NCBI GenBank assembly: GCA_964019135.1
Contig: OZ025265.1
Coordinates: forward strand, 26,077,143-26,141,142
Source of the DNA: Arenicola marina
Lineage: Eukaryota > Annelida > Polychaeta > Arenicolidae
Length of the DNA: 64,000 bases
Direction of reading: 5' to 3'
Numbering within the stretch: the first letter of the stretch is position 1; every line of letters starts with the position of its first letter. The notes under the pieces were generated by a model. It ran no database searches. It was not told the origin of the DNA and saw only the letters and a list, made by a program, of their open reading frames with translations. Made by a program: the position numbers and the translations under genes. Shown one piece after another: positions 1 to 55,800 of the stretch.

Positions 1-99
1 AACCGTCGTGCTATACATTCGCTAGGGGCGCTACATCAACCGTCGTGCAATACATTCGCTAGGGGCGCCACATCAACCGTCGTGCAATACATTCGCTAG

Positions 100-3000
100 G
101 GGCGTCACAACAACCGTCGTGCTATACATTCGCTAGGGGCGCCCCATCAACCGTCGTGCAATACATTCGCTAGGAGCGACACATCAACAGTCGTGCAATA
201 CATTCGCTAGGGGCGCTACATCAACCGTCGTGCTATACATTCGCTAGGGGCGCTACATCAACCGTCGTGCAATACATTCGCTAGGGGCGCCACATGAACC
301 GTCGTCCTATACATTCGCTAGGGGCGCCACATGAACCGTCGCCCTATACATTCGCTAGGGGCGCCACATCAACCCTCGTGCTATACATTCGCTAGGGGCG
401 CCACAACAACCGTCGTGCTATACATTCGCTAGGGGGCGCCACAACAACCGTCGTGCTATACATTCGCTAGGGGCGCCACAACAACCCTCGTGCTATACAT
501 TCGCTAAGGGGCGCCACAACAACCGTCGAGCTATACATTCGCTCAGGGGCGCTACATGAACCCTCGCGCAATACATTCGCTAGGGGCGCCACATCAACCG
601 TTGTGCTATACATTCGCTAGGGGCGCCACATCAACCGTCGTGCTATACATTCGCTAGGGGCGCCACATCAACCGTCGTGCAATACATTCGCTAGGGGCGC
701 CACATCAACCGTCGTGCAATACATTCGCTAGGGGCGCCACAACAACCGCCGGGCTATAAATTCGCTAGGGGCGCCACATGAACCGTCCTGCAATACATTC
801 GCTAGGGGGCGCCACATCAACCGTCGTGCTAGACATTCGCTAGGAGCGCCACATCAACCGTCGTACAATACATTCGCTAGGGGCGCCACAACAACCGTCG
901 TGCTATACATTTGCTAGGGGCGCCACATCAACCGTCGTGCTATACATTCGCTAGGGGCGCCACAACAACCGTCATGCTATGCACTCGCTAGGGGCGCCAC
1001 AACAACCGTCGTGCTATACATTCGCTAGGGGCGCCACATCAACCCTCGTGCTATACATTCGCTAGGGGCGCCACAACAACCGTCGTGCTATACATTCGCT
1101 AGGGGGCGCCACAACAACCGTCGTGCTATACATTCGCTAGGGGCGCCACAACAACCCTCGTGCTATACATTCGCTAAGGGGCGCCACAACAACCGTCGAG
1201 CTATACATTCGCTAAGGGGCGCTACATGAACCCTCGTGCAATACATTCGCTAGGGGCGCCACAACAACCGTCGTGCTATACATTCGCTAAGGGCGCCACA
1301 ACAACCGTCGTGCTATACATTCGCTGGGGGGTGCCACATCAACCGTCGTGCTAGACATTCGCTAGGGGCGCCACAACAACCGCCGTGCTATACATTCGTT
1401 AGAGGCGTCACAACAACGGTCGTGCTATACACTCGTTAGGGGCGCCACAACAACCGTCGTGCTATACATTCGCTAGGGGCGCCACATCAACCGTCGTGCA
1501 ATACATTCGCTAGTGGTGCCACATCAACCGTCGTGCAATACATTCGCTAGGGATGCCACAACAACCGTCGTGCTATACATTCGCTAGGGGCGCCACAACA
1601 ACCGTCGTGCTATACATTCGCTGGGGGGCGCCACATCAACCGTCGTGCTAGACATTCGCTAGGGGCGCCACAACAACCGTCGTGCTATATTTTCGATAGA
1701 GGCGCCACAACAACCATCGTGCTATACACTCGCAAGGGGCGCCACAACAACCGTCGTGCTATACATTCGCTAGGGGCGCCACATCAACCGTCGTGCAATA
1801 CATTCGCTGGGGGGCGCCACATCAACCGTCGTGCTAGACATTCGCTAGGGGCGCCACAACAACCGTCGTGCTATACATTCGCTAGGGGGCGCCACAACAA
1901 CCGTCGTGCTATACATTCGCTAGGGGCGCCACATTAACCGTCGTGCTATACATTCGCTAGGGGCGCCACAACAACCGTCGTGCAATACATTCGCTAGGGG
2001 CGCTACATCAACCGTCGTGCTATACATTCGCTAGGGGCGCTACATCAACCGTCGTGCAATACCTTCGCTAGGGGCGCCACATCAACCGTCGTGCAATACA
2101 TTCGCTAGGGGCGCCACATGAACCGTCGCGCTATACATTCGCTAGGGGCGCCACATCAACCCTCGTGCTATACATTCGCTAGGGGCGCCACAACAACCGT
2201 CGTGCTATACATTCGCTAGGGGGTGCCACAACAACCGTCGTGCTATACATTCGCTAGGGGCGCCACAACAACCCTCGTGCTATACATTCGCCCAGGGGCG
2301 CCACATCAACCGTCGTGCAATACATTCGCTAGGGGCGCCACATCAACCGTCGCGCAATACATTCGCTAGGGGCGCCACATCAACCGTTGTGCTATACATT
2401 CGCTAGGGGCGCCACATCAACCGTCGTGCTATACATTCGCTAGGGGCGCCACATCAACCGTCGTGCAATACATTCGCTAGGGGCGCCACATCAACCGTCG
2501 TGCAATACATTCGCTAGGGGCGCCACAACAACCGTCGGGCTATAAATTCGCTAGGGGCGCCACATGAACCGTCCTGCAATACATTCGCTAGGGGGCGCCA
2601 CATCAACCGTCGTGCTAGACATTCGCTAGGAGCGCCACATCAACCGTCGTACAATACATTCGCTAGGGGCGCCACAACAACCGTCGTGCTATACATTTGC
2701 TAGGGGCGCCACATCAACCGTCGTGCTATACATTCGCTAGGGGCGCCACAACAACCGTCATGCTATGCACTCGCTAGGGGCGCCACAACAACCGTCGTGC
2801 TATACATTTGCTAGGGGCGTCACAACAACCGTCGTGCTATACATTCGCTAGGGGCGCCCCATCAACCGTCGTGCAATACATTCGCTAGGAGCGACACATC
2901 AACAGTCGTGCAATACATTCGCTAGGGGCGCTACATCAACCGTCGTGCTATACATTCGCTAGGGGCGCTACATCAACCGTCGTGCAATACATTCGCTAGG

Positions 3001-5900
3001 GGCGCCACATAAACCGTCGTCCTATACATTCGCTAGGGGCGCCACATGAACCGTCGCCCTATACATTCGCTAGGGGCGCCACATCAACCCTCGTGCTATA
3101 CATTCGCTAGGGGCGCCACAACAACCGTCGTGCTATACATTCGCTAGGGGGCGCCACAACAACCGTCGTGCTATACATTCGCTAGGGGCGCCACAACAAC
3201 CCTCGTGCTATACATTCGCTAAGGGGCGCCACAACAACCGTCGAGCTATACATTCGCTAAGGGGCGCTACATGAACCCTCGTGCAATACATTCGCTAGGG
3301 GCGCCACAACAACCGTCGTGCTATACATTCGCTAGGGGCCGCCACAACAACCGTCGTGCTATACATTCGCTAGGGGCGCCACAACAACCGTCGTGCTATA
3401 CATTCGCTAGGGGCGCCACAACAACCGTCGTGCTGTACATTCGCTGGGGGGTGCCACATCAACCGTCGTGCTAGACATTCGCTAGGGGCGCCACAACAAC
3501 CGCCGTGCTATACATTCGTTAGAGGCGTCACAACAACGGTCGTGCTATACACTCGTTAGGGGCGCCACAACAACCGTCGTGCTATACATTCGCTAGGGGC
3601 GCCACATCAACCGTCGTGCAATACATTCGCTAGTGGTGCCACATCAACCGTCGTGCAATACATTGGCTAGGGATGCCACAACAACCGTCGTGCTATACAT
3701 TCGCTAGGGGCGCCACAACAACCGTCGTGCTATACATTCGCTGGGGGGCGCCACATCAACCGTCGTGCTAGACATTCGCTAGGGGCGCCACAACAACCGT
3801 CGTGCTATACATTCGCTAGGGGGCGCCACAACAACCGTCGTGCTATACATTCGCTAGGGGCGCCACATTAACCGTCGTGCTATACATTCGCTAGGGGCGC
3901 CACAACAACCGTCGTGCAATACATTCGCTAGGGGGCGCCACATCAACCGTCGTGCTAGACATTCGCTAGGAGCGCCACATAAACCGTCGTGCAATACATT
4001 CGCTAGGGTCGCCACAACAACCGTCGTGCTGTACATTTGCTAGGGGCGCCACATCAACCGTCGTGCTATACATTCGCTAGGGGCGCTACATCAACCGTCG
4101 TGCAATACATTCGCTAGGGGCGCCACATCAACCGTCGTGCAATACATTCGCTAGGGATGCCACAACAACCGTCGTGCTATACATTCGCTAGGGGCGCCAC
4201 AACAACCGTCGTGCTATACATTCGCTGGGGGGCGCCACATCAACCGTCGTGCTAGACATTCGCTAGGGGCGCCACAACAACCGTCGTGCTATATTTTCGA
4301 TAGAGGCGCCACAACAACCATCGTGCTATACACTTGCAAGGGGCGCCACAACAACCGTCGTGCTATACATTCGCTAGGGGCGCCACATCAACCGTCGTGC
4401 AATACATTCGCTGGGGGGCGCCACATCAACCGTCGTGCTAGACATTCGCTAGGGGCGCCACAACAACCGTCGTGCTATACATTCGCTAGGGGGCGCCACA
4501 ACAACCGTCGTGCTATACATTCGCTAGGGGCGCCACATTAACCGTCGTGCTATACATTCGCTAGGGGCGCCACAACAACCGTCGTGCAATACATTCGCTA
4601 GGGGGCGCCACATCAACCGTCGTGTTAGACATTCGCTAGGAGCGCCACATCAACCGTCGTGCAATACATTCGCTAGGGTCGCCACAACAACCGTCGTGCT
4701 GTACATTTGCTAGGGGCGCCACATCAACCGTCGTGCTATACATTGGCTAGGGGCGCTACATCAACCGTCGTGCAATACATTCGCTAGGGGCGCCACATCA
4801 ACCATCGTGCAATACATTCGCTAGGGGCGCCACATGAACCGTCGTCCTATACATTCGCTAGGGGCGCCACATGAACCGTCGCGCTATACATTCGCTAGGG
4901 GCGCCACATCAACCCTCGTGCTATACATTCGATAGGGGCGCCACAACAACCGTCGTGCTATACATTCGCTAGGGGCGCCACATCAACCATCGTGCAATAC
5001 ATTCGCTAGGGGCGCACATGAACCGTCGTCCTATACATTCGCTAGGGGCGCCACATGAACCGTCGTCCTATACATTCGCTAGGGGCGCCACATGAACCGT
5101 CGCGCTATACATTCGCTTGGGGCGCCACAACAACCGTCGTCCTATACATTCGCTAGGGGCCGCCACAACAACCGTCGTGCTATACATTCGCTAGGGGCGC
5201 CACAACAACCGTCGTGCTATACATTCGCTAGGGGCGCCACAACAACCGTCGTGCTATACATTCGCTGGGGGGCGCCACATCAACCATCGTGCTAGACATT
5301 CGCTAGGGGCGCCACAACAACCGTCGTGCTATATATTCGTTAGAGGCGTCACAACAACGGTCGTGCTATACACTCGTTAGGGGCGCCACAACAACCGTCG
5401 TGCTATACATTCACTAGGGGCGCCACATCAACCGTCGTGCAATACATTCGCTAGTGGCGCCACATCAACCTTCGTGCAATACATTCGCTAGGGATGCCAC
5501 AACAACCGTCGTGCTATACATTCGCTAGGGGCGCCACAACAACCGTCGTGCTATACATTCGCTGGGGGGCGCCACATCAACCGTCGTGCTAGACATTCGC
5601 TAGGGGCGCCACAACAACCGTCGTGCTATACATTCGCTAGGGGGCGCCACAACAACCGTCGTGCTATACATTCGCTAGGGGCGCCACATTAACCGTCGTG
5701 CTATACATTCGCTAGGGGCGCCACAACAACCGTCGTGCTATACATTCGCTAGGGGCGCCACATTAACCGTCGTGCTATACATTCGCTAGGGGCGCCACAT
5801 CAACCGTCGTGCTATATATTCGTTAGAGGCGTCACAACAACGGTCGTGCTATACACTCGTTAGGGGCGCCACAACAACCGTCGTGCTATACATTCGCTAG
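100..5900. repeat. Second set of higher-order blocks in the 37-bp satellite
   Basis: Marker variants recur at other fixed offsets in the left third. A GCGCCCCATC unit is near 141 and 2,856 (offset 2,715). The block at 1,719-1,937 recurs at 4,323-4,541 (2,604) and the block at 3,271-3,474 at 5,092-5,295 (1,821). The offsets differ from the 2,036 of the middle of the array, so expansion took place in separate rounds of unequal exchange rather than by one fixed higher-order unit. Confidence 0.7.
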
Positions 5901-8900
5901 GGGCGCCACATCAACCGTCGTGCAATACATTCGCTAGTGGCGCCACATCAACCGTCGTGCAATACATTCGCTAGGGATGCCACAACAACCGTCGTGCTAT
6001 ACATTCGCTAGGGGCGCCACATCAACCATCGTGCAATACATTCGCTAGGGGCGCCACATGAACCGTCGTCCTATACATTCGCTAGGGGCGCCACATGAAC
6101 CGTCGCGCTATACATTCGCTAGGGGCGCCACATCAACCCTCGTGCTATACATTCGATAGGGGCGCCACAACAACCGTCGTGCTATACATTCGCTAGGGGC
6201 GCCACATCAACCATCGTGCAATACATTCCCTAGGGGCGCACATGAACCGTCGTCCTATACATTCGCTAGGGGCGCCACATGAACCGTCGTCCTATACATT
6301 CGCTAGGGGCGCCACATGAACCGTCGCGCTATATATTCGTTAGAGGCGTCACAACAACGGTCGTGCTATACACTCGTTAGGGGCGCCACAACAACCGTCG
6401 TGCTATACATTCGCTAGGGGCGCCACATCAACCGTCGTGCAATACATTCGCTAGTGGCGCCACATCAACCGTCGTGCAATACATTCGCTAGGGATGCCAC
6501 AACAACCGTCGTGCTATACATTCGCTAGGGGCGCCACAACAACCGTCGTGCTATACATTCGCTGGGGGGCGCCACATCAACCGTCGTGCTAGACATTCGC
6601 TAGGGGCGCCACAACAACCGTCGCGCTATACTTTCGATAGAGGCGCCACAACAACCATCGTGCTACACACTCGCAAGGGGCGCCACAACAACCGTCGTGC
6701 TATACATTCGCTAGGAGCGCCACATGAACCGTCCTGCTATACATTCGCTGGGGGGCGCCACATCAACCGTCGTGCTAGACATTCGCCAGGGGCGCCACAA
6801 CAACCGTCGTGCTATACATTCGATAGAGGCACCACAACAACCATCGTGCTATACACTCGCTAGGGGCGCCACAACAACCGTCGTGCTATACATTCGCTAG
6901 GGGCGCCGCATCAACCGTCGTGCTATACATTCGCTAGGGGCGCCACAACAACCGTCATGCTATGCACTCGCAAGGGGCGCCACAACAACCGTCGTGCTAT
7001 ACATTCGCTAGGGGCGCCACATCAACCGTCGTGCTATACATTCGCTGGAGGGCGCCACATCAACCGTCGTGCTAGACATTCGCTAGGGGCGCCACAACAA
7101 CCATCGTGCTATACACTCGCTAGGGGCGCCACAACAACCGTCGTGCTATACATTCGCTAGGGGCGCCACATCAACCGTCGTGCAATACATCCGCTAGGGG
7201 CGCCACATCAACCGTCGTGCAATACATTCGCTAGGGGCGCCACATCAACCATCGTGCAACACATTAGCTAGGGGCACCACATCAACCGTCGTGCAATACA
7301 TTCGCTAGGGGCGCCACATCAACCGTTGTGCTATACATTCGCTAGGGGCGCCACATCAACCGTCGTGCTATATATTCGCTAGGGGCGCCACATCAACCGT
7401 CGTGTTATACATTCGCTAGGGGCGCCACAACAACCGTCGTGCTATACATTCGCTAGGGGCGCCATATCAACCGTCGTGCAATACATTCGCTAGGGGCGCC
7501 ACATCAACCGTCGAGCAATACATTCGCTAGGAGCGCCACAACAACCGTCGTGCTATACATTCGCTAGGGGCGCCACAACAACCATCGTGCTATACATTCG
7601 CTAGGAGCGCCACATCAACCGTCGTGCAATACATTCGCTAGGGGCGCCACATCAACCGTCGTGCTATACATTCGCTAGAGGGCGCCACAACAACCGTCGT
7701 GCTATACATTCGCTAGGGGCGCCACATGAACCGTCGTGCTATGCTTTCGCTAGGGGCGTCACATCAACCGTCGTGCAATACATTCGCTGGGGGCGCCACA
7801 ACAACCGTCGTGCTATACATTCGCTAGGGGCGCCGTATGAACCGTCGTGCTATACATTCGCTAGGGGCGCCACAACAACCGTCGTGCTATACATTCGCTA
7901 GAGACGCCACAACAACCGTCGTGCTATACATTCGCTAGGGGCGCCACATGAACCCTCGTGCCATACATTCGCTAGGGGCGCCACAACAACCGTCGTGCAA
8001 TACATTCGCTAGGGGGCGCCACATCAACCGTCGTGCTAGACATTCGCTAGGAGCGCCACATCAACCGTCGTGCAATACATTCGCTAGGGGCGCCCCAACA
8101 ACCGTCGTGCTATACATTTGCTAGGGGCGCCGCATCAACCGTCGTGCTATACATTCGCTAGGGGCGCCACAACAACCGTCATGCTATGCACTCGCTAGGG
8201 GCGCCACAACAACCGTCGTGCTATACATTTGCTAGGGGCGTCACAACAATCGTCGTGCTATACATTCGCTAGGGGCGCCACATCAACCGTCGTGCAATAC
8301 ATTCGCTAGGAGCGACACATCAACAGTCGTGCAATACATTCGCTAGGGGCGCTACATCAACCGTCGTGCATTACATTCGCTACGGGCGCTACATCAACCG
8401 TCGTGCTATACATTCGCTAGGGGCGCTACATCAACCGTCGTGCAATACATTCGCTAGGGGCGCCACATCAATCGTCGTGCAATACATTCGCTAGGGGCGC
8501 CACATGAACCGTCGCCCTATACATTCGCTAGGGGCGCCACATGAACCGTCGCGCTATACATTCGCTAGGGGCGCCACATCAACCCCCGTGCTATACATTC
8601 GCTAGGGGCGCCACAACAACCGTCGTGCTATACATTCGCCAGGGGGCGCCACAACAACCGTCGTGCTATACATTCGCTAGGGGCGCCACAACAACCCTCG
8701 TGCTATACATTCGCTGAGGGGCGCCACAGCAACCGTCGTGCTATACATTCTCTCAGGGGCGCTACTTGAACCCTCGTGCTATACATTCGCTAGGGGCGAC
8801 ACAACAACCGTCGTGCTATACATTCGCTAGGGGGCGCCCCAACAACCGTCGTGCTATACATTCGCTAGGGGTGCCTCAACAACCGTCGGGCTATACCTTC

Positions 8901-10469
8901 GCTAGGGGCGCCACAACAACCGTCGTGCTATACATTCGCTGGGGGGCGCCACATCAACCGGCGTGCTAGACATTCGCTAGGGGCGCCACATCAACCGTCG
9001 TGCTATGCATTCGTTAGAGGCGTCACAACAACCGTCGTGCTATACATTCGCTAGGGGCGCCACAACAACCGTCGTGCTATGCACTCGCTAGGGGCGCCAC
9101 AAAAACCGTCGTGCTATACACTCGTTAGGGGCGCCACAACAACCGTCGTGCTATACATTCGCTAAGGGCGCCACATCAACCGTCGTGCAATACATTCGCT
9201 AGGGGCGCCACATCAACCGTCGTGCAATACATTCACTAAGGGCGCCACATCAACCGTCGTGTTATACATTCGCTAGGGCTGCCACAACAACCGTCGTGCT
9301 ATACATTCGCTAGGGGCGCCGCAACAACCGTCGTGCTATGCATTTGCTAGGGGCGTCACATCAACCGTCGTGCTATACATTCGCTAGGGGGGCCACAACA
9401 ACCGTCGTGCTATAAATTCGCTAGGAGCGCCACATCAACCGTCGTGTTATACATTCGCTAGGGGCGCCACATCAACCGTCGTGCTAAGCATTCGCTAGAA
9501 GCGCCACATCAACCGTCGTGCAATACATTCGCTAGGGGCGACACATCAACCGTCGTGCTATACATTCGCTAGAGGGCGCCACAACAACCGTCGTGCTAGA
9601 CATTCACTAGGGGGGCCACAACAACCCTCGTGCTATACATTCGCTAGGGGCGCCACAACAACCGTCGTGCTATGCATTCGCTAGGGGCGCCACATCAACC
9701 GTCCTGCAATACATTCGCTAGGGGCGCCACATCAACCGTCGTGCTATACATTCGCTAGGGGCGCCACATCAACCGTCGTGCAATACATTCGCTAGGGGCG
9801 CCACATCGACCATCGCGCAATACATTTGCTAGGGGCGCCACAACAACCGTCGGGCTATGCATTTGCTAGGGGCGTCACATCAACCGTCGCGCTATACATT
9901 CGCTAGGGGCGCCACAACAACCGTCGTGCTATAAATTCGCTAGGAGCGCTACATCAACCGTTGTGTTATACATTCGCTAGGGGCGCCACATCAACCGTCG
10001 TGCTAAACATTCGCTAGAAGCGCCACATCAACCGTCGTGCAATACATTCGCTAGGGGCGACACATCAATCGTCGTGCTATACATTCGCTAGAGGGCGCCA
10101 CAACAACCGTCGTGCTAGACATTCACTAGGGGCGCCACAACAACCCTCGTGCTATGCATTCGCTAGGGGCGCCACAACAACCGTCGTGCTATGCATTCGC
10201 TAGGGGCGCCACATCAACCGTCGTGCAATACATTCGCTAGGGGCGCCACATCAACCGTCGTGTTATACATTCGCTAGGGGCGCCATATCAACCGTCGTGC
10301 AATACATTCGCTAGGGGCGCCACATCAACCGTCGTGCAATACATTCGCTAGGGGCGCCACATCAACCGTCGTGCTATACATTCGCTAGACGGCGCCACAA
10401 CAACCGTCGTGCTATACATTCGCTAGGGGCGCCACATGAACCGTCGTGCTATACATTCGCTAGGGGCGT

Positions 10470-13400
10470 CACATCAACCGTCGTGCTATACATTCGCTAG
10501 GGGCGCCACAACAACCGTCGTGCTGTACATTCGCTAGGGGCGCCACAACAACCGTCGTGCTATGCATTCGCTAGGGGCGCCACATCAACCGTCGTGCTAT
10601 ACATTTGCTTAGGGCGCCACAACAACCGTCGTGCTATACATCCGCTAGGGGCGCCACAACAACCGTCGTGCTATACATTCGCTAGGGGCGCCAAATCAAC
10701 CGTCGTGCAATACATTCGCTAGGGGCGCCACATGAACCGTCGTCCTATACATTCGCTAGGATCGCCACATGAACCGTCGCGCTATACATTCGCTAGGGAC
10801 GCCACAACAACCGTCGTGCTATACATTCGCTAGGGGCGCCACATGAACTCTCGTGCTATACATTCGCTAGGGGCGCCACAACAACCGTCGTGCTATACGT
10901 TCGCTAAGGGCGCCACATCAACCGTCGTGCTATACATTCGCTAGGGGCGCCACAACAACCGTCGTGCAATACATTCGCTAGGGGGCGCCACATCAACCGT
11001 CGTGCTAGACATTCGCTAGGAGCGCGACATCAACCGTCGTGCAATACATTCGCTAGGGGCGCCACAACAACCGTCGTGCTATACATTTGCTAGGGGCGCC
11101 ACATCAACCGTCGTGCTATACATTCGCTAGGGGCGCCACAACAACCGTCATGCTATGCACTCGCTAGGGGCGCCACAACAACCGTCGTGCTATACATTTG
11201 CTAGGGGCGTCACAACAATCGTCGTGCTATACATTCGCTAGGGGCGCCCCATCAACCGTCGTGCAATACATGCGCTAGGAGCGCCACATCAACAGTCGTG
11301 CAATACATTCGCTAGGGGCGCTACATCAACCGTCGTGCTATACATTCGCTAGGGGCGCCACATCAACCGTCGTGCAATACATTCGCTAGGGGCGCCACAT
11401 CAACCGTCGTGCAATACATTCGCTAGGGGCGCCACATGAACCGTCGTTCTATACATTCGCTAGGGGCGCCACATGAACCGTCGCGCTATACATTCGCTAG
11501 GGGCGCCACATCAACCGGCGTGCTATACATTCGCTAGAGGGCGCCACAACAACCGTCGTGCTATACATTCGCTTGCGGCGCCACATGAACCGTCGTGCTA
11601 TACATTCACTAGGGGCGCCACAACAACCGTCGTGCCACACATTCGCTAGGGGCGCCACATCAACCGTCGTGCTATACATTCGCTAGGGGCGCCACAACAA
11701 CCGTCGTGCAATACATTCGCTAGGGGCGCCACAACAACCGTCGCGCTATACATTCGCTAGGGGCGCCACATCAACCATCGTGCTATACATTCGCTAGGGG
11801 CGCCACATCAACCGTCGTGCAATACATTCGCTACTGGCGCCGTATCAACCGTCGTGCAATACATTCGCTAGGGGCGCCACAACAACCGTCGTGCTATACA
11901 TTCATTAGGGGCGCCACAACAACCGTCGTGCAATACATTCGCTAAAGGCGCACATCAACCGTCGTGCTATTCATTCGCTAGGGGCGCCACAACAACCGTG
12001 GTGCTATACATTCGCTAGGGGCGCCACAACAACCGTCGTGCTATACATTCGTTAGGGGCGCCATATGAACCGTCGTGCTATACATTCGCTAGGGGCGCCA
12101 CTTGAACCGTCGTGCAATACATTCGCTAGGGGCGCCGCATGAAACGTCGTCCTATACATTCGCTAGGGGCGCCACAACAACCGTCGTGCAATGCATTCGA
12201 TAGGGGCGCCACATCAACCGTCGTGCTATACATTCGCTAGGGGCGCCACATCAACCGTCGTGCAATACATTCGCTAGGGGCGCCACATCAACCGTCGTGC
12301 TATACATTCGCTAGGGGCGCCACATCAACCGTCGTGCAATACATTCGCTAGGGGCGCCACATCGACCATCGCGCAATACATTTGCTAGGGGCGCCACAAC
12401 AACCGTCGGGCTATAAATTCGATAGGGGCGCCACACCAACCGTCGTGCTATACATTCGCTAGGGGCGCCACAACAACCGTCATGCAATACATTTGCTAGG
12501 AGCGTCACATCAACCGTCGTGCTATACATTCGCTAGGGGCGCCACAACAACCGTCGTGCTGTACATTCGCTAGGGGCGCCACAACAACCGTCGTGCTATG
12601 CATTCGCTAGGGGCGCCACATCAACCGTCGTGCTATACATTTGCTTAGGGCGCCACAACAACCGTCGTGCTATACATCCGCTAGGGGCGCCACAACAACC
12701 GTCGTGCTATACATTCGCTAGGGGCGCCAAATCAACCGTCGTGCAATACATTCGCTAGGGGCGCCACATGAACCGTCGTCCTATACATTCGCTAGGATCG
12801 CCACATGAACCGTCGCGCTATACATTCGCTAGGGACGCCACAACAACCGTCGTGCTATACATTCGCTAGGGGCGCCACATGAACTCTCGTGCTATACATT
12901 CGCTAGGGGCGCCACAACAACCGTCGTGCTATACGTTCGCTAAGGGCGCCACATCAACCGTCGTGCTATACATTCGCTAGGGGCGCCACAACAACCGTCG
13001 TGCAATACATTCGCTAGGGGGCGCCACATCAACCGTCGTGCTAGACATTCGCTAGGAGCGCCACATCAACCGTCGTGCAATACATTCGCTAGGGGCGCCA
13101 CAACAACCGTCGTGCTATACATTTGCTAGGGGCGCCACATCAACCGTCGTGCTATACATTCGCTAGGGGCGCCACAACAACCGTCATGCTATGCACTCGC
13201 TAGGGGCGCCACAACAACCGTCGTGCTATACATTTGCTAGGGGCGTCACAACAATCGTCGTGCTATACATTCGCTAGGGGCGCCCCATCAACCGTCGTGC
13301 AATACATGCGCTAGGAGCGCCACATCAACAGTCGTGCAATACATTCGCTAGGGGCGCTACATCAACCGTCGTGCTATACATTCGCTAGGGGCACCACATC

Positions 13401-14541
13401 AACCGTCGTGCAATACATTCGCTAGGGGCGCCACATCAACCGTCGTGCAATACATTCGCTAGGGGCGCCACATGAACCGTCGTTCTATACATTCGCTAGG
13501 GGCGCCACATGAACCGTCGCGCTATACATTCGCTAGGGGCGCCACATCAACCGGCGTGCTATACATTCGCTAGAGGGCGCCACAACAACCGTCGTGCTAT
13601 ACATTCGCTTGCGGCGCCACATGAACCGTCGTGCTATACATTCACTAGGGGCGCCACAACAACCGTCGTGCCACACATTCGCTAGGGGCGCCACATCAAC
13701 CGTCGTGCTATACATTCGCTAGGGGCGCCACAACAACCGTCGTGCAATACATTCGCTAGGGGCGCCACAACAACCGTCGCGCTATACATTCGCTAGGGGC
13801 GCCACATCAACCATCGTGCTATACATTTGCTAGGGGCGCCACATCAACCGTCGTGCAATACATTCGCTACTGGCGCCGTATCAACCGTCGTGCAATACAT
13901 TCGCTAGGGGCGCCACAACAACCGTCGTGCTATACATTCATTAGGGGCGCCACAACAACCGTCGTGCAATACATTCGCTAAAGGCGCACATCAACCGTCG
14001 TGCTATTCATTCGCTAGGGGCGCCACAACAACCGTGGTGCTATACATTCGCTAGGGGCGCCACAACAACCGTCGTGCTATACATTCGTTAGGGGCGCCAT
14101 ATGAACCGTCGTGCTATACATTCGCTAGGGGCGCCACTTGAACCGTCGTGCTATACATTCGCTAGGGGCGCCGCATGAAACGTCGTCCTATACATTCGCT
14201 AGGGGCGCCACAACAACCGTCGTGCAATGCATTCGATAGGGGCGCCACATCAACCGTCGTGCTATACATTCGCTAGGGGCGCCACATCAACCGTCGTGCA
14301 ATACATTCGCTAGGGGCGCCACATCAACCGTCGTGCTATACATTCGCTAGGGGCGCCACATCAACCGTCGTGCAATACATTCGCTAGGGGCGCCACATCG
14401 ACCATCGCGCAATACATTTGCTAGGGGCGCCACAACAACCGTCGGGCTATAAATTCGATAGGGGCGCCACACCAACCGTCGTGCTATACATTCGCTAGGG
14501 GCGCCACAACAACCGTCATGCAATACATTTGCTAGGAGCGC
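10470..14541. repeat. Higher-order tandem duplication (2,036 bp, 2 copies) inside the 37-bp satellite
   Basis: Rare unit variants recur at a constant spacing of 2,036 bp (55 units plus 1 base). The variant TTGCTTAGGG is near 10,606 and 12,642; the 36-bp unit GCTAAAGGCG is at 11,941 and 13,977; the GTGCCACACATTC variant is near 11,635 and 13,671. The copies are about 10,470-12,505 and 12,506-14,541 and differ at only a few bases, so the duplication is young. A further partial copy follows at 14,650-16,450: 9,887 matches 14,701 and 10,601 matches 15,415 (offset 4,814), while 13,977 matches 16,161 (offset 2,184), so it carries internal length changes. Confidence 0.85.
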
Positions 14542-17500
14542 CACATCAACCGTCGTGCAATACATTCGGTAAGGGCGCCACATCAACCGTCGTCTTATAC
14601 CTTCGCTAGGGCCGCCACAACAACCGCCGTGCTATACATTCGCTAGGGGCGCCGCAACAACCGTCGTGCTATGCATTTGCTAGGGGCGTCACATCAACCG
14701 TCGCGCTATACATTCGCTAGGGGCGCCACAACAACCGTCGTGCTATAAATTCGCTAGGAGCGCTACATCAACCGTTGTGTTATACATTCGCTAGGGGCGC
14801 CACATCAACCGTCGTGCTAAACATTCGCTAGAAGCGCCACATCAACCGTCGTGCAATACATTCGCTAGGGGCGACACATCAATCGTCGTGCTATACATTC
14901 GCTAGAGGGCGCCACAACAACCGTCGTGCTAGACATTCACTAGGGGCGCCAAAACAACCCTCGTGCTATGCATTCGCTAGGGGCGCCACAACAACCGTCG
15001 TGCTACGCATTCGCTAGGGGCGCCACATCAACCGTCGTGCAATACATTCGCTAGGGGCGCCACATCAACCGTCGTGTTATACATTCGCTAGGGGCGCCAC
15101 ATCAACCGTCGTGCAATACATTCGCTAGGGGCGCCACATCAACCGTCGTGCAATACATTCGCTAGGGGCGCCACATCAACCGTCGTGCTATACATTCGCT
15201 AGACGGCGCCACAACAACCGTCGTGCTATACATTCGCTAGGGGCGCCACATGAACCGTCGTGCTATACATTCGCTAGGGGCGTCACATCAACCGTCGTGC
15301 TATACATTCGCTAGGGGCGCCACAACAACCGTCGTGCTGTACATTCGCTAGGGGCGCCACAACAACCGTCGTGCTATGCATTCGCTAGGGGCGCCACATC
15401 AACCGTCGTGCTATACATTTGCTTAGGGCGCCACAACAACCGTCGTGCTATACATCCGCTAGGGGCGCCACAACAACCGTCGTGCTATACATTCGCTAGG
15501 GGCGCCAAATCAACCGTCGTGCAATACATTCGCTAGGGGCGCCACATGAACCGTCGTCCTATACATTCGCTAGGATCGCCACATGAACCGTCGCGCTATA
15601 CATTCGCTAGGGACGCCACAACAACCGTCGTGCTATACATTCGCTAGGGGCGCTACATCAACCGTCGTGCTATACATTCGCTAGGGGCGCCGCATCAACC
15701 GTCGTGCAATACATTCGCTAGGGGCGCCACATCAACCGTCGTGCAATACATTCGCTAGGGGCGCCACATGAACCGTCGTCCTATACATTCGCTAGGGGCG
15801 CCACATGAACCGTCGCGCTATACATTCGCTAGGGGCGCCACATCAACCGGCGTGCTATACATTCGCTAGGGGCGCCACAACAACCGTCGTGCTATACATT
15901 CGCTAGGGGCGCCACAACAACCGTCGTGCTATACATTCGCTAGGGGCGCCACAACAACCGTCGTGCTATACATTCGCTAGGGGCGCCACATCAACCATCG
16001 TGCTATACATTCGCTAGGGGCGCCACATCAACCGTCGTGCAATACATTCGCTACTGGCGCCGTATCAACCGTCGTGCAATACATTCGCTAGGGGCGCCAC
16101 AACAACCGTCGTGCTATACATTCATTAGGGGCGCCACAACAACCGTCGTGCAATACATTCGCTAAAGGCGCACATCAACCGTCGTGCTATTCATTCGCTA
16201 GGGGCGCCACAACAACCGTGGTGCTATACATTCGCTAGGGGCGCCACAACAACCGTCGTGCTATACATTCGTTAGGGGCGCCATATGAACCGTCGTGCTA
16301 TACATTCGCTAGGGGCGCCACTTGAACCGTCGTGCTATACATTCGCTAGGGGCGCCACATGAAACGTCGTCCTATACATTCGCTAGGGGCGCCACAACAA
16401 CCGTCGTGCAATGCATTCGATAGGGGCGCCACATCAACCGTCGTGCTATACATTCGCTAGGGGCGCCACAACAACCGTCGTGCTATACATTCGCTAGGGG
16501 CGCCACATCAACCGTCGTGCAATACATTCGCTAGGGGCCCTACAACAACCGTCGTGCTATACATTCGCTAGGGGCGCCACATCAACCGTCGTGCTATACA
16601 TTCGCTAGGGGCGCCACATTAACCGTCGTGCAATACATTTGCTAGGGGCGCCACAACAAACGTCGTGCTATACATTCGTTAGGGGCGCCACAACAATCGT
16701 TGTGCGATGCATTCGCTAGGGGCGCCTCATCAACCGTCGTGCTATACATTTGCTAGGGGCGCCACATCAACCGTCGTGCAATACATTCGCTAGGGGCGCC
16801 ACATCAACCGTCGTGCTAAACATTCGCTAGGGGCGCCACATTAACCGTCGTGCAATACATTTGCTAGGGGCGCCACAACAACCGTCGTGCAATACATTCG
16901 CTAGGGGCGCCACATCAACCGTCGTGCTATACATTGGCTAGGGGCGCCACATTAACCGTCGTGCAATACATTCGCTAGGGGCGCCACATCAACCGTCGTG
17001 CTATACATTTGCTAGGGGCGCCACATCAACCGTCGTGAAATACATTCGCTAGGGGCGCCACATCAACCGTCGTGCAATACATTCGCTAGGGGCGCCACAT
17101 TAACCGTCGTGCAATACATTTGCTAGGGGCGCCACAACAACCGTCGTGCAATACATTCGCTAGGGGCGCCACATCAACCGTCGTGCTATTCATTCGCTAG
17201 GGGCGCCACAACAACCGTCGTGCTATACATTCGCTAGGGGCGCCACAACCACCGTCGTGCAATTCATTCGCTACTGGCGCCACATCAACCGTCGTGTAAT
17301 ACATTCGCTTGGGGCGCCACAACAACCGTCGTGCTATACATTCGTTAGGGGCGCCATATGAACCGTCGTGCTTTACATTCGCTAGGGGCGCCACATCAAC
17401 CGTCGTGCCATACATTCGCTAGGGGCGCCACATGAACCCTCATGCTATACATTCGCTAGGGGCGCCACAACAACCGTCGTGCAATGCATTCGATAGGGGC

Positions 17501-17952
17501 GCCACATCAACCGTCGTGCTATACATTCGCTAGGGGCGCCACATCAACCGTCGCGCTATACATTCGCTAGGGCCGCCACATCAACCGTCGTGCAATACAT
17601 TCGCTAGGGGCGCCACAACAACCGTCGTGCTATACATTCGCTAGGGGCGCCATATGAACCGTCGTGCTATACATTCGCTAGGGGCGCCACAACAACCGTC
17701 GTGCTATACATTCGTTAGGGGCGCCACATCAACCGTCGTGCTATACATTCGCTAGGGGCGCCACAACAACCGTCGTGCTATACATTCGTTAGGGGCGCCA
17801 CATCAACCGTCGTGCTATACATTCGCTAGGGGCGCCATATGAACCGTCGTGCAATACATTCGCTAGGGGCGCCACATCAACCGTCGTGCAATACATTCGC
17901 TAGGGGCGCCACATCAACCGTCGTGCTATACATTCGCTAGGGGCGCCACATC

Positions 17953-49800: not shown

Positions 49801-52800
49801 TGACATTTGTTAGTAACATCATCTTTAAGCGTCTGATCAAAATCAAAAAAGTCGAAATCTGTACCGCTGATGACGTACAGGTGGCCAATGACAGACATGA
49901 CATGACGAAGTTACCAAGGCCAATTACCGTCAAGAGCCGGACAATTAAAACGGCAACCCGTTGCGCGGGGCCGCCCCCGATGGGTTAGAGCGCTCTCTCT
50001 TGCCACCTGAGAGCCTAACGGCGCTTGGATCCGTGGTTCGCGCCCCGCTGTAATCCTGTCTGTGTGGTCGCAGGATAAAGATCCCATGTCCTTCGTTGCG
50101 ACCATACGACCATATGACCATAAGTGGTTAAAGCGTCCTGAATATACAACCAACCAACCCTTTGGGCTTATGGTGGCGCCGGCGGGGGTGGGGGGGATGC
50201 AAATGATTGCGGTCGGACTAAGATAGCGCCTTTTCATTTTGTGAAAGCACCCATGTCTTAGCGCTGCTCTTTGCGGAACTATTCGCTACTTAAAGTTACC
50301 AACGGCCATTGTAACAGACAAATATTTATATCATGCCTCAACAGCGAATAAGTTTAATGTGTGACTAACGACAATGCTTGTATGTCTTATCAGAACTTTG
50401 CAAGCCTGGCCTGTGGTCAACAATTCTCGGCTACGGCGACAAAATTTCCTGTTGTAAGCATGTGGACACGATTCCTTCGGCCAGCGTCGACGATTGCGCC
50501 CAAAGTGCCTGTAGAAAGGGTTACCACGTGATTAACTACAGTGGACCAGAGAAAAGGTGTTTCCTCAAGAACTGCACCACAGAGGACTACAATATATCAA
50601 CTTACCCGTCCGGTCTACACAGGGTAGAGGCACTTACTAGTAAGTAGATCATGCCTACAGTAACAATAGCTCACTAGGCCAGTCCTTGCCGGTTAGTAGA
50701 TCCGCACAGCCGTACGTTGTACCAGTGCTCATTGGTTGGTGGATCCACACAGCCGTACATTGTAGCAGTGATCACTGGTTAGTGGATCCGCATAGTCGTA
50801 CATTGTACCACTGATCGCTGGTTAGTAGGTCCGCACAGTCGTACGTTGTACCAGTGCTCACCGAATAGTGGATCTTCACAGCCGTACTTTGTACCAGAGC
50901 TCACTGATTAGTGGATCCGCATAGTCGTACATTGTACCAGTGCTCACTGGTTGGTGGATCCGCAAAACCGTACATTGTATCAGTGCTCACTGCTTAGTTG
51001 ATCCGCACAGCCGTACATTGTACCAGGGCGCATTGGTTAATGGATCCGCACAGCCGTACATTGTATCAGTGCTCACTGGTTAGTGGATCCGCACAGCCGT
51101 ACATTGTACCACTGATCACTGGTCGGTTTGATCCGCACAATCGTACATTGTAGCAGTGCTCACTGGTTGGTGGATTTGTACAGCCGTACATTGTACCAGT
51201 GCTCACTGATTGGTGGACCCGCACAGCCGTACATTGTACAGTGTTCACTTGTCAGTGGATCTGCTCAGCCGTATATTGTACCAGTGATCACTGGTTAGTG
51301 GATCTGCACAGCCGTACATTGTATCAAAGCTCACTGGTTAGTGGATCCGTTCAGCCGTACATTGTACCAGTGATCACTGGTTAGTGGATCCGCACAGTCG
51401 TACATTGTACCAGTGCTCATTGGTTGGTGGATCGGCACAGCCGTACATTGTACCAGTGATCACTGATTAGTGGCTCTGCACAGCCGTATATTGTACCAAT
51501 AATCACTGCTTAGTGGATCTGCACAGCCGTACATGGTACCAAAGCTTACTGGTTAGTGGATCCGCTCAGCCGTACATTGTACCAGTGATCACTGGTTAGT
51601 GGATCCGCTCAGCCGTACACTGTACCAGTGCTCATTGTTTGGTTTTATCCGCACAGCCGTACATTGTACCAGTGATCATTGGTTAGTGGATCCGCACAGC
51701 CGTACATTGTACCAGTGTTCACTTGTTGGTGGAACCGCACTATCGTACATTTTACCAGTGCTCATTGATTGGTGGATCCGAACAGCCGCACATTGTACCA
51801 GTGCTCACTACATAGTGGATCAGCACAGCCGTTCATTATACTAGTGCGCACTTGTTGTCCGTCCGCAACATACGGAAAAAAACATGTTGTCTGTATCTAC
51901 GTACCTAGCAGGGGATTTCCGTTGACTTTCTGCCTTGTAATGCGCAATCAACGAGATAGTGTGAAGATTTTTCCGGGTGCCAACAAAATTTTGATGTTTC
52001 TTGCTGAAGTAGCAAAATGGCGGACGGACAACAAGTGCGCGTGGGTCATGTGACGCCGCGTGACTCATCGCCCACGTGACCTAAATCCCGGGGGCTCACC
52101 ATGGGGGGACGGGAGGACCCGGGGCTCCAGGTGGGGGGGAATATACTTAGGAGAGGCCCCCTGCGAGTAGGGGGTAATAACTTCTATCGTTGCTGCACAA
52201 CAAAAGAAATTATGGCACATAATTTCATATATCTAAGCTTTCTTTACAGGGGACCACATGATGGCAGATTTCCTTACAGTGTCCATCCTGGTGAAGCAAC
52301 AACGTAAATATCACTTATTTCTTCATGACTTTTCTATCGAATTGTATATCGAAAACGATCGATTTATTTGTCGTTATTTGGCGGCATATTACTTATAATT
52401 ATTTACAATGCTTCAGGAGAAATTAAAGTAGCTTCCAGTAAGAATATGGCTGCCGGATGTGACGTCGCAATTTGGGGAACACTCCCTCCCCGTGCGCCTG
52501 CACTGACAGACGGCACGTCTTTGGTCACGTGGGACTCGTCACTCTGTGTTCAACTGAATGATACCGCTGGCGGGTTGATAGTTGTGGACCTGAAAGAATG
52601 GAGAGCGGTAGGACATGTCAGTCTCAACATTGTGGGTGAGTGCTGGATAAAGACCCGGTAATGGACTCCAATGGGAAGGAGAGCTGTAGGACTTGTCAGT
52701 CTCAACATTGTGGGTGAGTGCTGGATAAAGACACGGTAATGGACTCCAATGGGGAGGAGAGCTGTAGGACTTGTCAGTCTCAACATTGTGGGTGAGTGCT

Positions 52801-55800
52801 GGATAAAGACCCGGTAATGGACTCCAATGGGGAGGAGAGCTGTAGGACTTGTCAGTCTCAACATTGTGGGTGAGTGCAGGATAAAGACACGGTAATGGAC
52901 TCCAATGGGGAGGAGAGCTGTAGGACTTGTCAGTCTCAACATTGTGGGTGAGTGCTGGATAAAGACACGGTAATGGACTCCAATGGGGAGGAGAGCTGTA
53001 GGACATGCCAGTCTCAACATTGTGGGTGAGTGCTGGATAAAGACACGGTAATGGACTCCAATGGGGAGGAGAGCTGTAGGACATGCCAGTCTCAACATTG
53101 TGGGTCAGTGCTGGATAAAGACACGGTAATGGGCGATCTCCCGACAGACCGCGCTCCGCTTGCGCTATTGCCCCTCTGCCTAAGTAAACTGGGCCGTATG
53201 TAACCGTCGGGATTACCGTACGCAAAACTTGAATTCAATTGGAGATATATCCGAAGTTTTGCATCCAATGCATCATTAAGAGGACAATTCGGCCACCACT
53301 GGCTTTTTTGGCGTTTTTAAGTATGACGCCATATATATTTCGTACAGTTGATATTGACGCAGTCAGATAATCAGTCAGTCCAAGACAAGTCTCCAAAGGA
53401 TTCTGAAGCTGATAATGTAGGTGGAAAATCGTTGAATGATCCGCTTTAAGTGAATCACCGATCACGCCCACTAGTTGTCACCATAATCTTAAATGGTCTG
53501 TCGTGAAAAGTCCTCATGGCTCAACACCCATGTGATGACCCCATGGAATGGAATATTCGGGGAAATGACAGGCCTGAGTCATACGTGGGCTATGTTGAAA
53601 CCGGCAAAACATGCAAGAGTCAGGTCTAGTAGGTGTAAGAACTATACATCTAGGAATCATGTTCGTTATCAAAATAGCGCACTGTTTCGTGTGTCACTGT
53701 TTAAATGACGCACGTTTGTGTTAATAATAATGCCCGACTATGTGTAAAGTACAACAACAAAAATGTTTCCTGATGCTATATGTGCAGGAGTCTGATACGG
53801 GTATCTACACGCCTGTCTCATTGCAGACGACCACCAGCTGTACAACGTGGCGACAGCAGCCTACATTGCGAGGTGTGAGGCTTCTAGTGAATACAACGAC
53901 GTATACAAGTGTGACAACATCTATGATGGTGGCATTGGTGACGGGGGTGGTGAATCGTGGGCATCCAGGAAACAGGGCGTCGGTGCCTGGGTCCTAGTTG
54001 AGTTCTATGTTGATGTCATAGTTCATGAAGTCCACATCCTTCAGCGCTGCGGTACTTTGGATATGACCCAGATCATAGAACTCCGGTTTACGGACGGCAC
54101 CCACCGACAAGTAAGTTGTATCATTGTCATGTTAAGTCGTACCAGTGACGTCATCCTATACTGTTTGTAACACACGCGTATGTGCGTATATGTGTGGTTC
54201 TGCCTTGCTGAAATCCCTCTGTCTCTGCCAGACGTGAGCGTCCAGTGCGTATGTGTGGTTCTGCCTTGTAGACATCCCTCTGTCTATGCCAGACGTGAGC
54301 GTCCAGTACGTATGTGTGGTTCTGCCTTGTAGACACCCCTCTGTCTACGCCAGACGTGAGCGTCCAGTACGTATGTGTGGTTCTGCCTTGTAGACACCCC
54401 TCTGTCTACGCCAGACGTGAGCGTCCAGTACGTATGTGTGGTTCTGCCTTGTAGACATCCATCTGTCTATCCCAGACGTGACCGTCCAGTACGTATGTGT
54501 GGTTCTGCGTTGTAGACACCCATCTGTCTCTGCCAGACGTGAGCGTCCAGTACGTATGTGTGGTTCTGCCTTGTAGACATCCATCTGTCTATCCCAGACG
54601 TGACCGTCCAGTACGTATGTGTGGTTCTGCGTTGTAGACACCCATCTGTCTCTGCCAGACGTGAGCGTCCAGTATGTGTAGTTCTGCCTTGTCGACACCC
54701 CTCTGTCTACGCCAGACGTGAGCGTCCAGTACGTATGTGTGGTTCTGCCTTGTAGACATCGTTTTGTCTATGCCAGACGTGAGCGTCCAGTACGTATGTG
54801 TGGTTCTGCCTTGTAGACATCCTTTTGTCTATGCCAGACGTAAGCTTCCGGTACGTATGTGTGGTTCTGCCTTGTAGATATCCCTCTGCCTATGCCAGAC
54901 GTGAGCGTCCGGTATGTGTGGTTCTGCCTTGTAGACATCCCTCTGCCTATGCCAGACGTGAGCCCTAATTAAGCCCTTGACTTGTTTTATGAATATAGAT
55001 ATGTATTTAAAATTATGTTGTGTTCTCAGGTACACCTGGCGTACTATCCTGACGTTATGTTCGCGGACTGTTCCGGCCAGGACTGGCAGGTGTTCCCTAT
55101 CTCCCCGGTCGTCACAGGATCCATCAACTTTACCAATAAAGCTGTCTACAACTCTACTAACAATGGCCTTCGAGAGATCAAGGTTATTGGTCGAGGTGAG
55201 TGCAACCCATGTCTTTGTCTTGTTTGTGTATTGTTTGGATATATTGGCATTATCAATGCTCACGATATAGAAGTCTAGTTTTTTTAATGAAGATGTTTAA
55301 ACATTTAAATGAAATCACGCTGCAGTATCTATATTTTGCGGGAATTAGGCAACTGACAAGCCGTACCGCTAACAAAGATACTTGTCTTCCACAGTGGCTT
55401 CAAGCAACAACTTTACAGTCGCCATTTTGGATGACAACACGCTTACCGCGGCCAGCGACTTCATCAACATCCCGGATGAATACAAGTGTGGCTCTGTTCA
55501 GGTGTCAAACACGGAACTGTTGCACGACGACGACGCCACTGTATTCATCCACTGCGACAAAGTAGTGCGCGGTCGTTTCGCCGTCATTCTCTACCATGGT
55601 GTCGGGCTAGGAATGTGCGAGATCAAAGCATTCACAGGTTGGTTGTTTGCCCCATTGTTCTAGTGTTTTCCACGGAATGGTTGATCTATAACCAAACATT
55701 GTATGTGAAATTAACTGTTACCTCTGCTATAGACATCGTGCGTAGTTACGTAACAACTATCGCCATCTTTAATGCTCACAATGACAGTTCTCAGTTAATA

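Follow-up and report, generated by a model that had tools for sequence, protein, structure and literature searches.

The stretch of DNA analysed here (the window) comprises 64,000 nucleotides of the Arenicola marina genome (GenBank assembly GCA_964019135.1, contig OZ025265.1, positions 26,077,143 to 26,141,142 of the forward strand). In this genome the mitochondrial COX1 is translated with the invertebrate code, and the mitochondrial ORFs, identified by eye, appear to follow the annelid order. The exons of a secreted-type gene, or genes, span about 46-64 kb of the window on the + strand; they were read by eye, and their phases join consistently. At the junction of exon 7 with intron 7 lies a minisatellite whose unit carries the exon's own splice donor. 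Comparison with related loci elsewhere in the genome suggests that this element and the coding sequence beside it have been exchanged between gene copies.

Exon 7 (52417..52635, + strand), also read by eye, comprises 219 nt with phase 1/1 and 72 full codons, and its end forms the first repeat unit. The donor-bearing minisatellite (52603..53132, + strand) consists of seven units, and Tandem Repeats Finder (TRF) places it at 52600-53132 with a period of 78 bp, 6.8 copies and 97% matches. The first, in-frame donor GTGAGT occupies 52636..52641 of the + strand; further GTGAGT hexamers follow on that strand at 52714, 52792, 52870, 52948 and 53026, and the seventh unit carries GTCAGT at 53104. A first-pass annotation had described the 78-bp unit as including the last ~33 coding bases of exon 7 together with its own donor, which is borne out by the sequence and by TRF, and its row of six GTGAGT at exact 78-bp spacing with GTCAGT in unit 7 stands at the positions given. 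Of the 15 GTGAGT hexamers on the + strand of the window, six are the array donors, and the only 78-bp steps between neighbouring hexamers are the five inside the array. Tandem arrays take up 52% of the window (about 25% in the 46-64 kb region), a density at which an array at an exon edge need be nothing unusual. The location at the exon end is not due to chance, since five other copies of the exon in the genome have the array in this position and a sixth has a remnant.

These copies were found by searching the whole genome (867 Mb in 762 contigs). The exon 7 peptide matches seven places (nine candidates were scored), and the DNA search gave at least 44 matches, at least 25 of them at the seven exon 7 loci and at least 19 to the dispersed repeat after the array only. 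With units counted by their match to the exon-end core, group A comprises the window copy (7 units), C20:26.216 (18 units) and C9:12.01 (67 units); group B comprises C20:14.20 (6 units), C20:32.378 (5 units) and C20:32.316 (3 units); and group C is C20:3.12 alone (19 units). Copy number differs between the paralogs, with clear arrays of 5 to 67 units in six of the seven. By TRF the array is contiguous with the exon end in six of the seven copies, that of C20:3.12 being called as a 155-bp double unit; there is no call at C20:32.316, a worn three-unit remnant in which the two units after the first have decayed. GTGAGT is intact in 115 of the 125 units at the seven loci, and GT in 124. The array of C9:12.01 is near-uniform, with 9 unit types among its 67 units and a block of 19 units present twice, a sign of recent expansion.

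The arrays hold locus-specific variants, and variants of the exon unit recur within arrays. Such variants argue against an assembly artefact or pseudogene debris as the source of the pattern, as do the open exon 7 and GTGAGT donor of all seven loci. Although exon 8 of C20:26.216 is cut off by fusion to a 61-bp array, as either source could explain, it is open over the full match in the other six copies, and exon 9 is present in six of the seven (one of these followed only to the end of the examined stretch). We consider an origin of this kind very improbable.

Exon 7 ends in phase 1, and reading through past the first donor of the window copy yields GECWIKTR and then a stop; the earlier claim that distal donors add eight residues and a stop holds for every distal donor of this copy. 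The read-through stop also comes after 8 residues in C20:26.216 and C9:12.01, after 9 in C20:3.12, after 17 in C20:14.20 and C20:32.316, and after 26 in C20:32.378, where donor 2 is still open but the frame is shifted. Four of the seven copies depart from the 78-bp register, some of their units being set 71, 76, 77, 79 or 89 bp apart. Splicing most likely uses the first donor, from which the frame continues into exon 8, and we infer that misspliced mRNA decays.

The row of donors could instead act as a splicing rheostat, in which distal donors compete with the first and the proportion of premature-stop (or exon-8-skipping) transcripts depends on array length, tuning the level of the lectin-like protein. 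The donors pair well with U1 (−9.9 kcal/mol for TGGGTGAGT versus −11.6 kcal/mol for CAGGTAAGT), the near-complete retention of GT agrees with such a role, and the donor columns are the least variable in raw counts. There is also a precedent in human ABCA7, where, as far as the excerpted text of the report describes it, a 25-bp variable-number tandem repeat (VNTR) includes the exon 18 donor, retention of one unit leads to a premature stop, and VNTR length correlates with skipping of exon 19 (PMC5954066). In the same excerpts, however, one-unit retention is unaffected by array length (PMC5954066), and the paralogs described here range from 3 decayed units to 67, with stop position and register varying between copies.

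Conservation of the donor itself was assessed by counting each change once per locus over 115 units, leaving out every first unit and, in the three group A arrays, the truncated last unit. By this count, 7 of 158 distinct changes fall in the donor hexamer, which occupies six of the 78 columns, where 12.2 would be expected (p = 0.14); without C20:32.316 the figures are 5 of 111 (p = 0.28). The donor is thus not significantly more conserved by distinct changes, which again counts against competition among donors. Selection for or against distal donors was considered and set aside, there being no significant departure in distinct changes per column, though raw counts are lowest in the donor. Nor does the sequence give clear support to a maintained bank of donors. 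The copy-number-tuned switch proposed in the first-pass annotation likewise finds no clear support, given the range of unit counts, the donor p value and the variable stops and register; a rheostat of this type seems to us unlikely.

The last 45 codons of exon 7 (52500..52635, + strand) form a patch of low silent divergence between paralog groups. Between groups A and B, about 50-80% of four-fold silent sites differ in the surrounding exons, and 10-24% in the patch. In counts, 9-14 of 11-20 four-fold sites differ in exons 5 and 8, 2-5 of 21-22 differ in the patch, and 25-34 of 36-51 differ in the other parts (exon 5, the 5' part of exon 7, exon 8, and exon 9 where found); exon 6, with 3 of 6 in each pair, was left out of the flank comparison. 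Patch and flanks differ in all nine A-B pairs (Fisher p from 2.3e-6 to 1.6e-3), which share lineages and are not independent. The 5' boundary of the patch within exon 7 is loosely placed, with only 4-5 four-fold sites upstream of it in A-B pairs. The array units of group A differ from those of C20:14.20 or C20:32.378 by about 6-13% on average and by 2.6-5.1% at best.

Variable sites were also divided among three lineages only, with the window or C9:12.01 standing for A, each B copy for B, and C20:3.12 for C. Lineage C accounts for 4-5 of the 7-9 variable four-fold sites in the patch and for 3-6 of the 19-27 in the flanks (p 0.014-0.39), and the direction of this excess is the one expected had A and B exchanged sequence after they separated. 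From these comparisons, the array and the adjoining coding end have probably been homogenised between loci, and the process is most likely ectopic gene conversion starting within or close to the array, rather than constraint.

Constraint on sequence, imposed by a splicing enhancer or by another RNA or DNA element, would slow change in the array and the exon end without any conversion. It would account for the 25 consecutive exon-end nucleotides that are identical in all seven copies, and for a patch that is also somewhat low against group C. However, the patch does change within group B: of its 25 four-fold sites, 6 differ between C20:14.20 and C20:32.378, compared with 0 of 32 for exon 5, though 11 of 30 for exon 8. 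Constraint alone therefore fits less well. Changes found in lineage C alone occur as often within the patch as they do in the flanks, and the array of C20:32.316 has decayed, neither of which favours constraint, and we think it a doubtful explanation.

Several results weigh against conversion between paralogs with little effect on splicing. The remnant units of C20:32.316 are 18-47% different from the others, and homogenisation is therefore not universal. Pairs that include group C are also low in the patch (6-9 of 21-23 four-fold sites, versus 14-26 of 24-42 outside it; p 0.045-0.27 in six pairs), and the lineage C excess in the patch reaches p < 0.05 in only two of six four-fold comparisons and in none of six when all one-amino-acid codons are used (p 0.076-0.44). 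As to splicing, raw variation is lowest in the donor, with a mean of 1.0 per column compared with 2.17 in the exon-derived columns and 3.4 in the rest (45 distinct units, C20:32.316 excluded), which leaves room for weak constraint, and use of the first donor is a link that the interpretation takes as given.

We read the observed anatomy (six arrays and a seventh remnant, with their unit counts, their frames and the low-divergence patch) as that of a donor-bearing minisatellite at an exon edge, near-passive in splicing, that exchanges sequence between paralogs by probable ectopic conversion, and we hold this account to be reasonably probable. A segment spanning the junction of exon 7 and intron 7 would have been tandemly duplicated, either before the copies diverged or before it passed between them, and each locus would then have grown or shrunk its own array by unequal exchange or slippage. 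The first donor would be spliced, and the distal donors would yield at most premature-stop or frame-shifted transcripts. Ectopic gene conversion would be the simplest cause of the likeness that extends from the array over some 135 nt of the adjoining coding exon. Exchange between paralogs appears to be a better-supported consequence of the array than a splicing switch, which is a possible one. A stronger proposal, in which the array is a standing exchange point of seven paralogs on two chromosomes, conversion rewrites the last ~45 codons and array length sets the rate of splicing failure, is in our judgement improbable. Were it true, a non-coding repeat would influence a lectin-like gene family at two levels, protein sequence and output.

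The copies form a natural series within one genome, in which the same exon is followed by 5 to 67 tandem donors or by a decayed remnant, and with this series the influence of donor copy number on splicing could be tested directly. If the patch is due to conversion, it would be a case in which a minisatellite has homogenised the coding sequence of different gene copies.

The other donor-bearing minisatellites known to us lie in single human genes. Turri, Cuin and Porter reportedly described in 1995 a minisatellite that provides multiple donors in the transcript of human IFI6 (6-16/G1P3). Among minisatellite hot spots of recombination or gene conversion, the cases known to us concern alleles of one locus; the present locus resembles them in having a tandem array beside an unusually similar patch, and departs from them in that paralogs are compared and the patch lies in coding sequence. 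For IFI6, the excerpted text of a citing paper states that two downstream repeat units act as donors and give three mRNA species (PMC4526556). On that description, the two systems share a minisatellite offering several splice donors, but the alternative donors of IFI6 give rise to isoforms, whereas the predicted outcome of distal donors here is a stop or a frameshift. The likeness to the VNTR of ABCA7 intron 18, as excerpted from its report, is that the array starts at the exon's donor and the donor lies within the unit. The ABCA7 array has a 25-bp unit starting from the GT, belongs to one gene and is polymorphic in people; in contrast, the 78-bp unit described here reaches about 33 nt into coding sequence, occurs in seven paralogs and is accompanied by a coding patch of low divergence. 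Among the matches listed from one open-access library, a donor-bearing array common to a paralog family was not found, which is weak evidence of absence, as little of the search was aimed at gene conversion or concerted evolution. Donor-bearing minisatellites as a kind are already known; what sets the present case apart is their sharing by a paralog family, the coding sequence in the unit and the alike coding patch.

Exon 5 (50394..50639, + strand, phase 1/1), read by eye, ends in ACTTACTA followed by the donor GTAAGT; tblastn finds homologues in five of the six other copies and none in the C20:3.12 stretch examined. Exon 6 (52250..52303, + strand) has 54 nt and phase 1/1, and matches, some of them weak, occur in all six other copies. 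Exon 8 (53827..54110, + strand) runs from phase 1 to phase 0 and matches DUF7402 (Pfam PF24135, E = 2.8e-8). Exon 9 (55030..55195, + strand) joins exon 8 in frame and has homologues in other copies. The domain matches in the scanned stretches of the gene region are Ricin_B_lectin, Sushi, DUF7402 and, below threshold, WSC. Exon 7 matches no Pfam family at E values up to 10, and no fucolectin or F5/8 match was found in the gene stretches scanned, which did not cover every exon. The label 'fucolectin-containing', attached to the predicted protein by the first-pass annotation, is accordingly not confirmed in those stretches, where exon 8 matches DUF7402.

A 43-bp array called by TRF (50691..51856, + strand; 27 copies of a unit composed of CACTG followed by GTTAGTGGATC) also lies in the gene region. 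Its unit weakly resembles the donor junction of exon 5, agreeing in 15 of 24 positions (p = 0.0046 relative to shuffled units, with three neighbouring arrays tested) and in 10 of 18 positions outside the donor (p = 0.012); judged by this resemblance, the gene may contain another, older array derived from a donor. By TRF, it has 27 copies in the window, 17 in C20:26.216 and 3.2 in C9:12.01. The intron after exon 8 contains a 61-bp array (54189..54963, + strand; TRF), whose unit has no match to the exon 8 donor junction. A donor-derived origin was rejected for this array and for a 25-bp array; only the 43-bp array is weakly positive. The 61-bp array has 12.8 copies in the window, 6.4 in C20:26.216 and at least 86.7 in C9:12.01 (C9:12019712-12025000, continuing beyond the end of the stretch). 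Copy number has changed separately in each array of the gene. In C20:26.216 (C20:26213500-26221000, minus strand), exon 8 has lost its end and runs straight into the 61-bp array, a fusion that resembles the product of an array-mediated deletion. Arrays with 24-bp and 21-bp units are present in the same region.

The 78-bp array is truncated by the start of a dispersed repeat (53133..53300, + strand), with the same junction in the three most similar copies; this repeat has at least 19 further genomic matches at 68-88% identity. In the best blastn pieces, the window and C20:26.216 are 84-91% identical over 44.0-51.8 kb (one 72-bp piece at 78%) and 96-98% identical from about 52231 to at least 56.25 kb, except for the 61-bp array at 89-90%. 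The sharp step at about 52231, where identity goes from about 87% through unalignable sequence to 98%, falls between the 43-bp array and exon 6; it is a separate, younger boundary, and the proposed exchange between paralogs does not depend on it. A 37-bp array of 484 copies (1-17952) fills the first 18 kb of the window.

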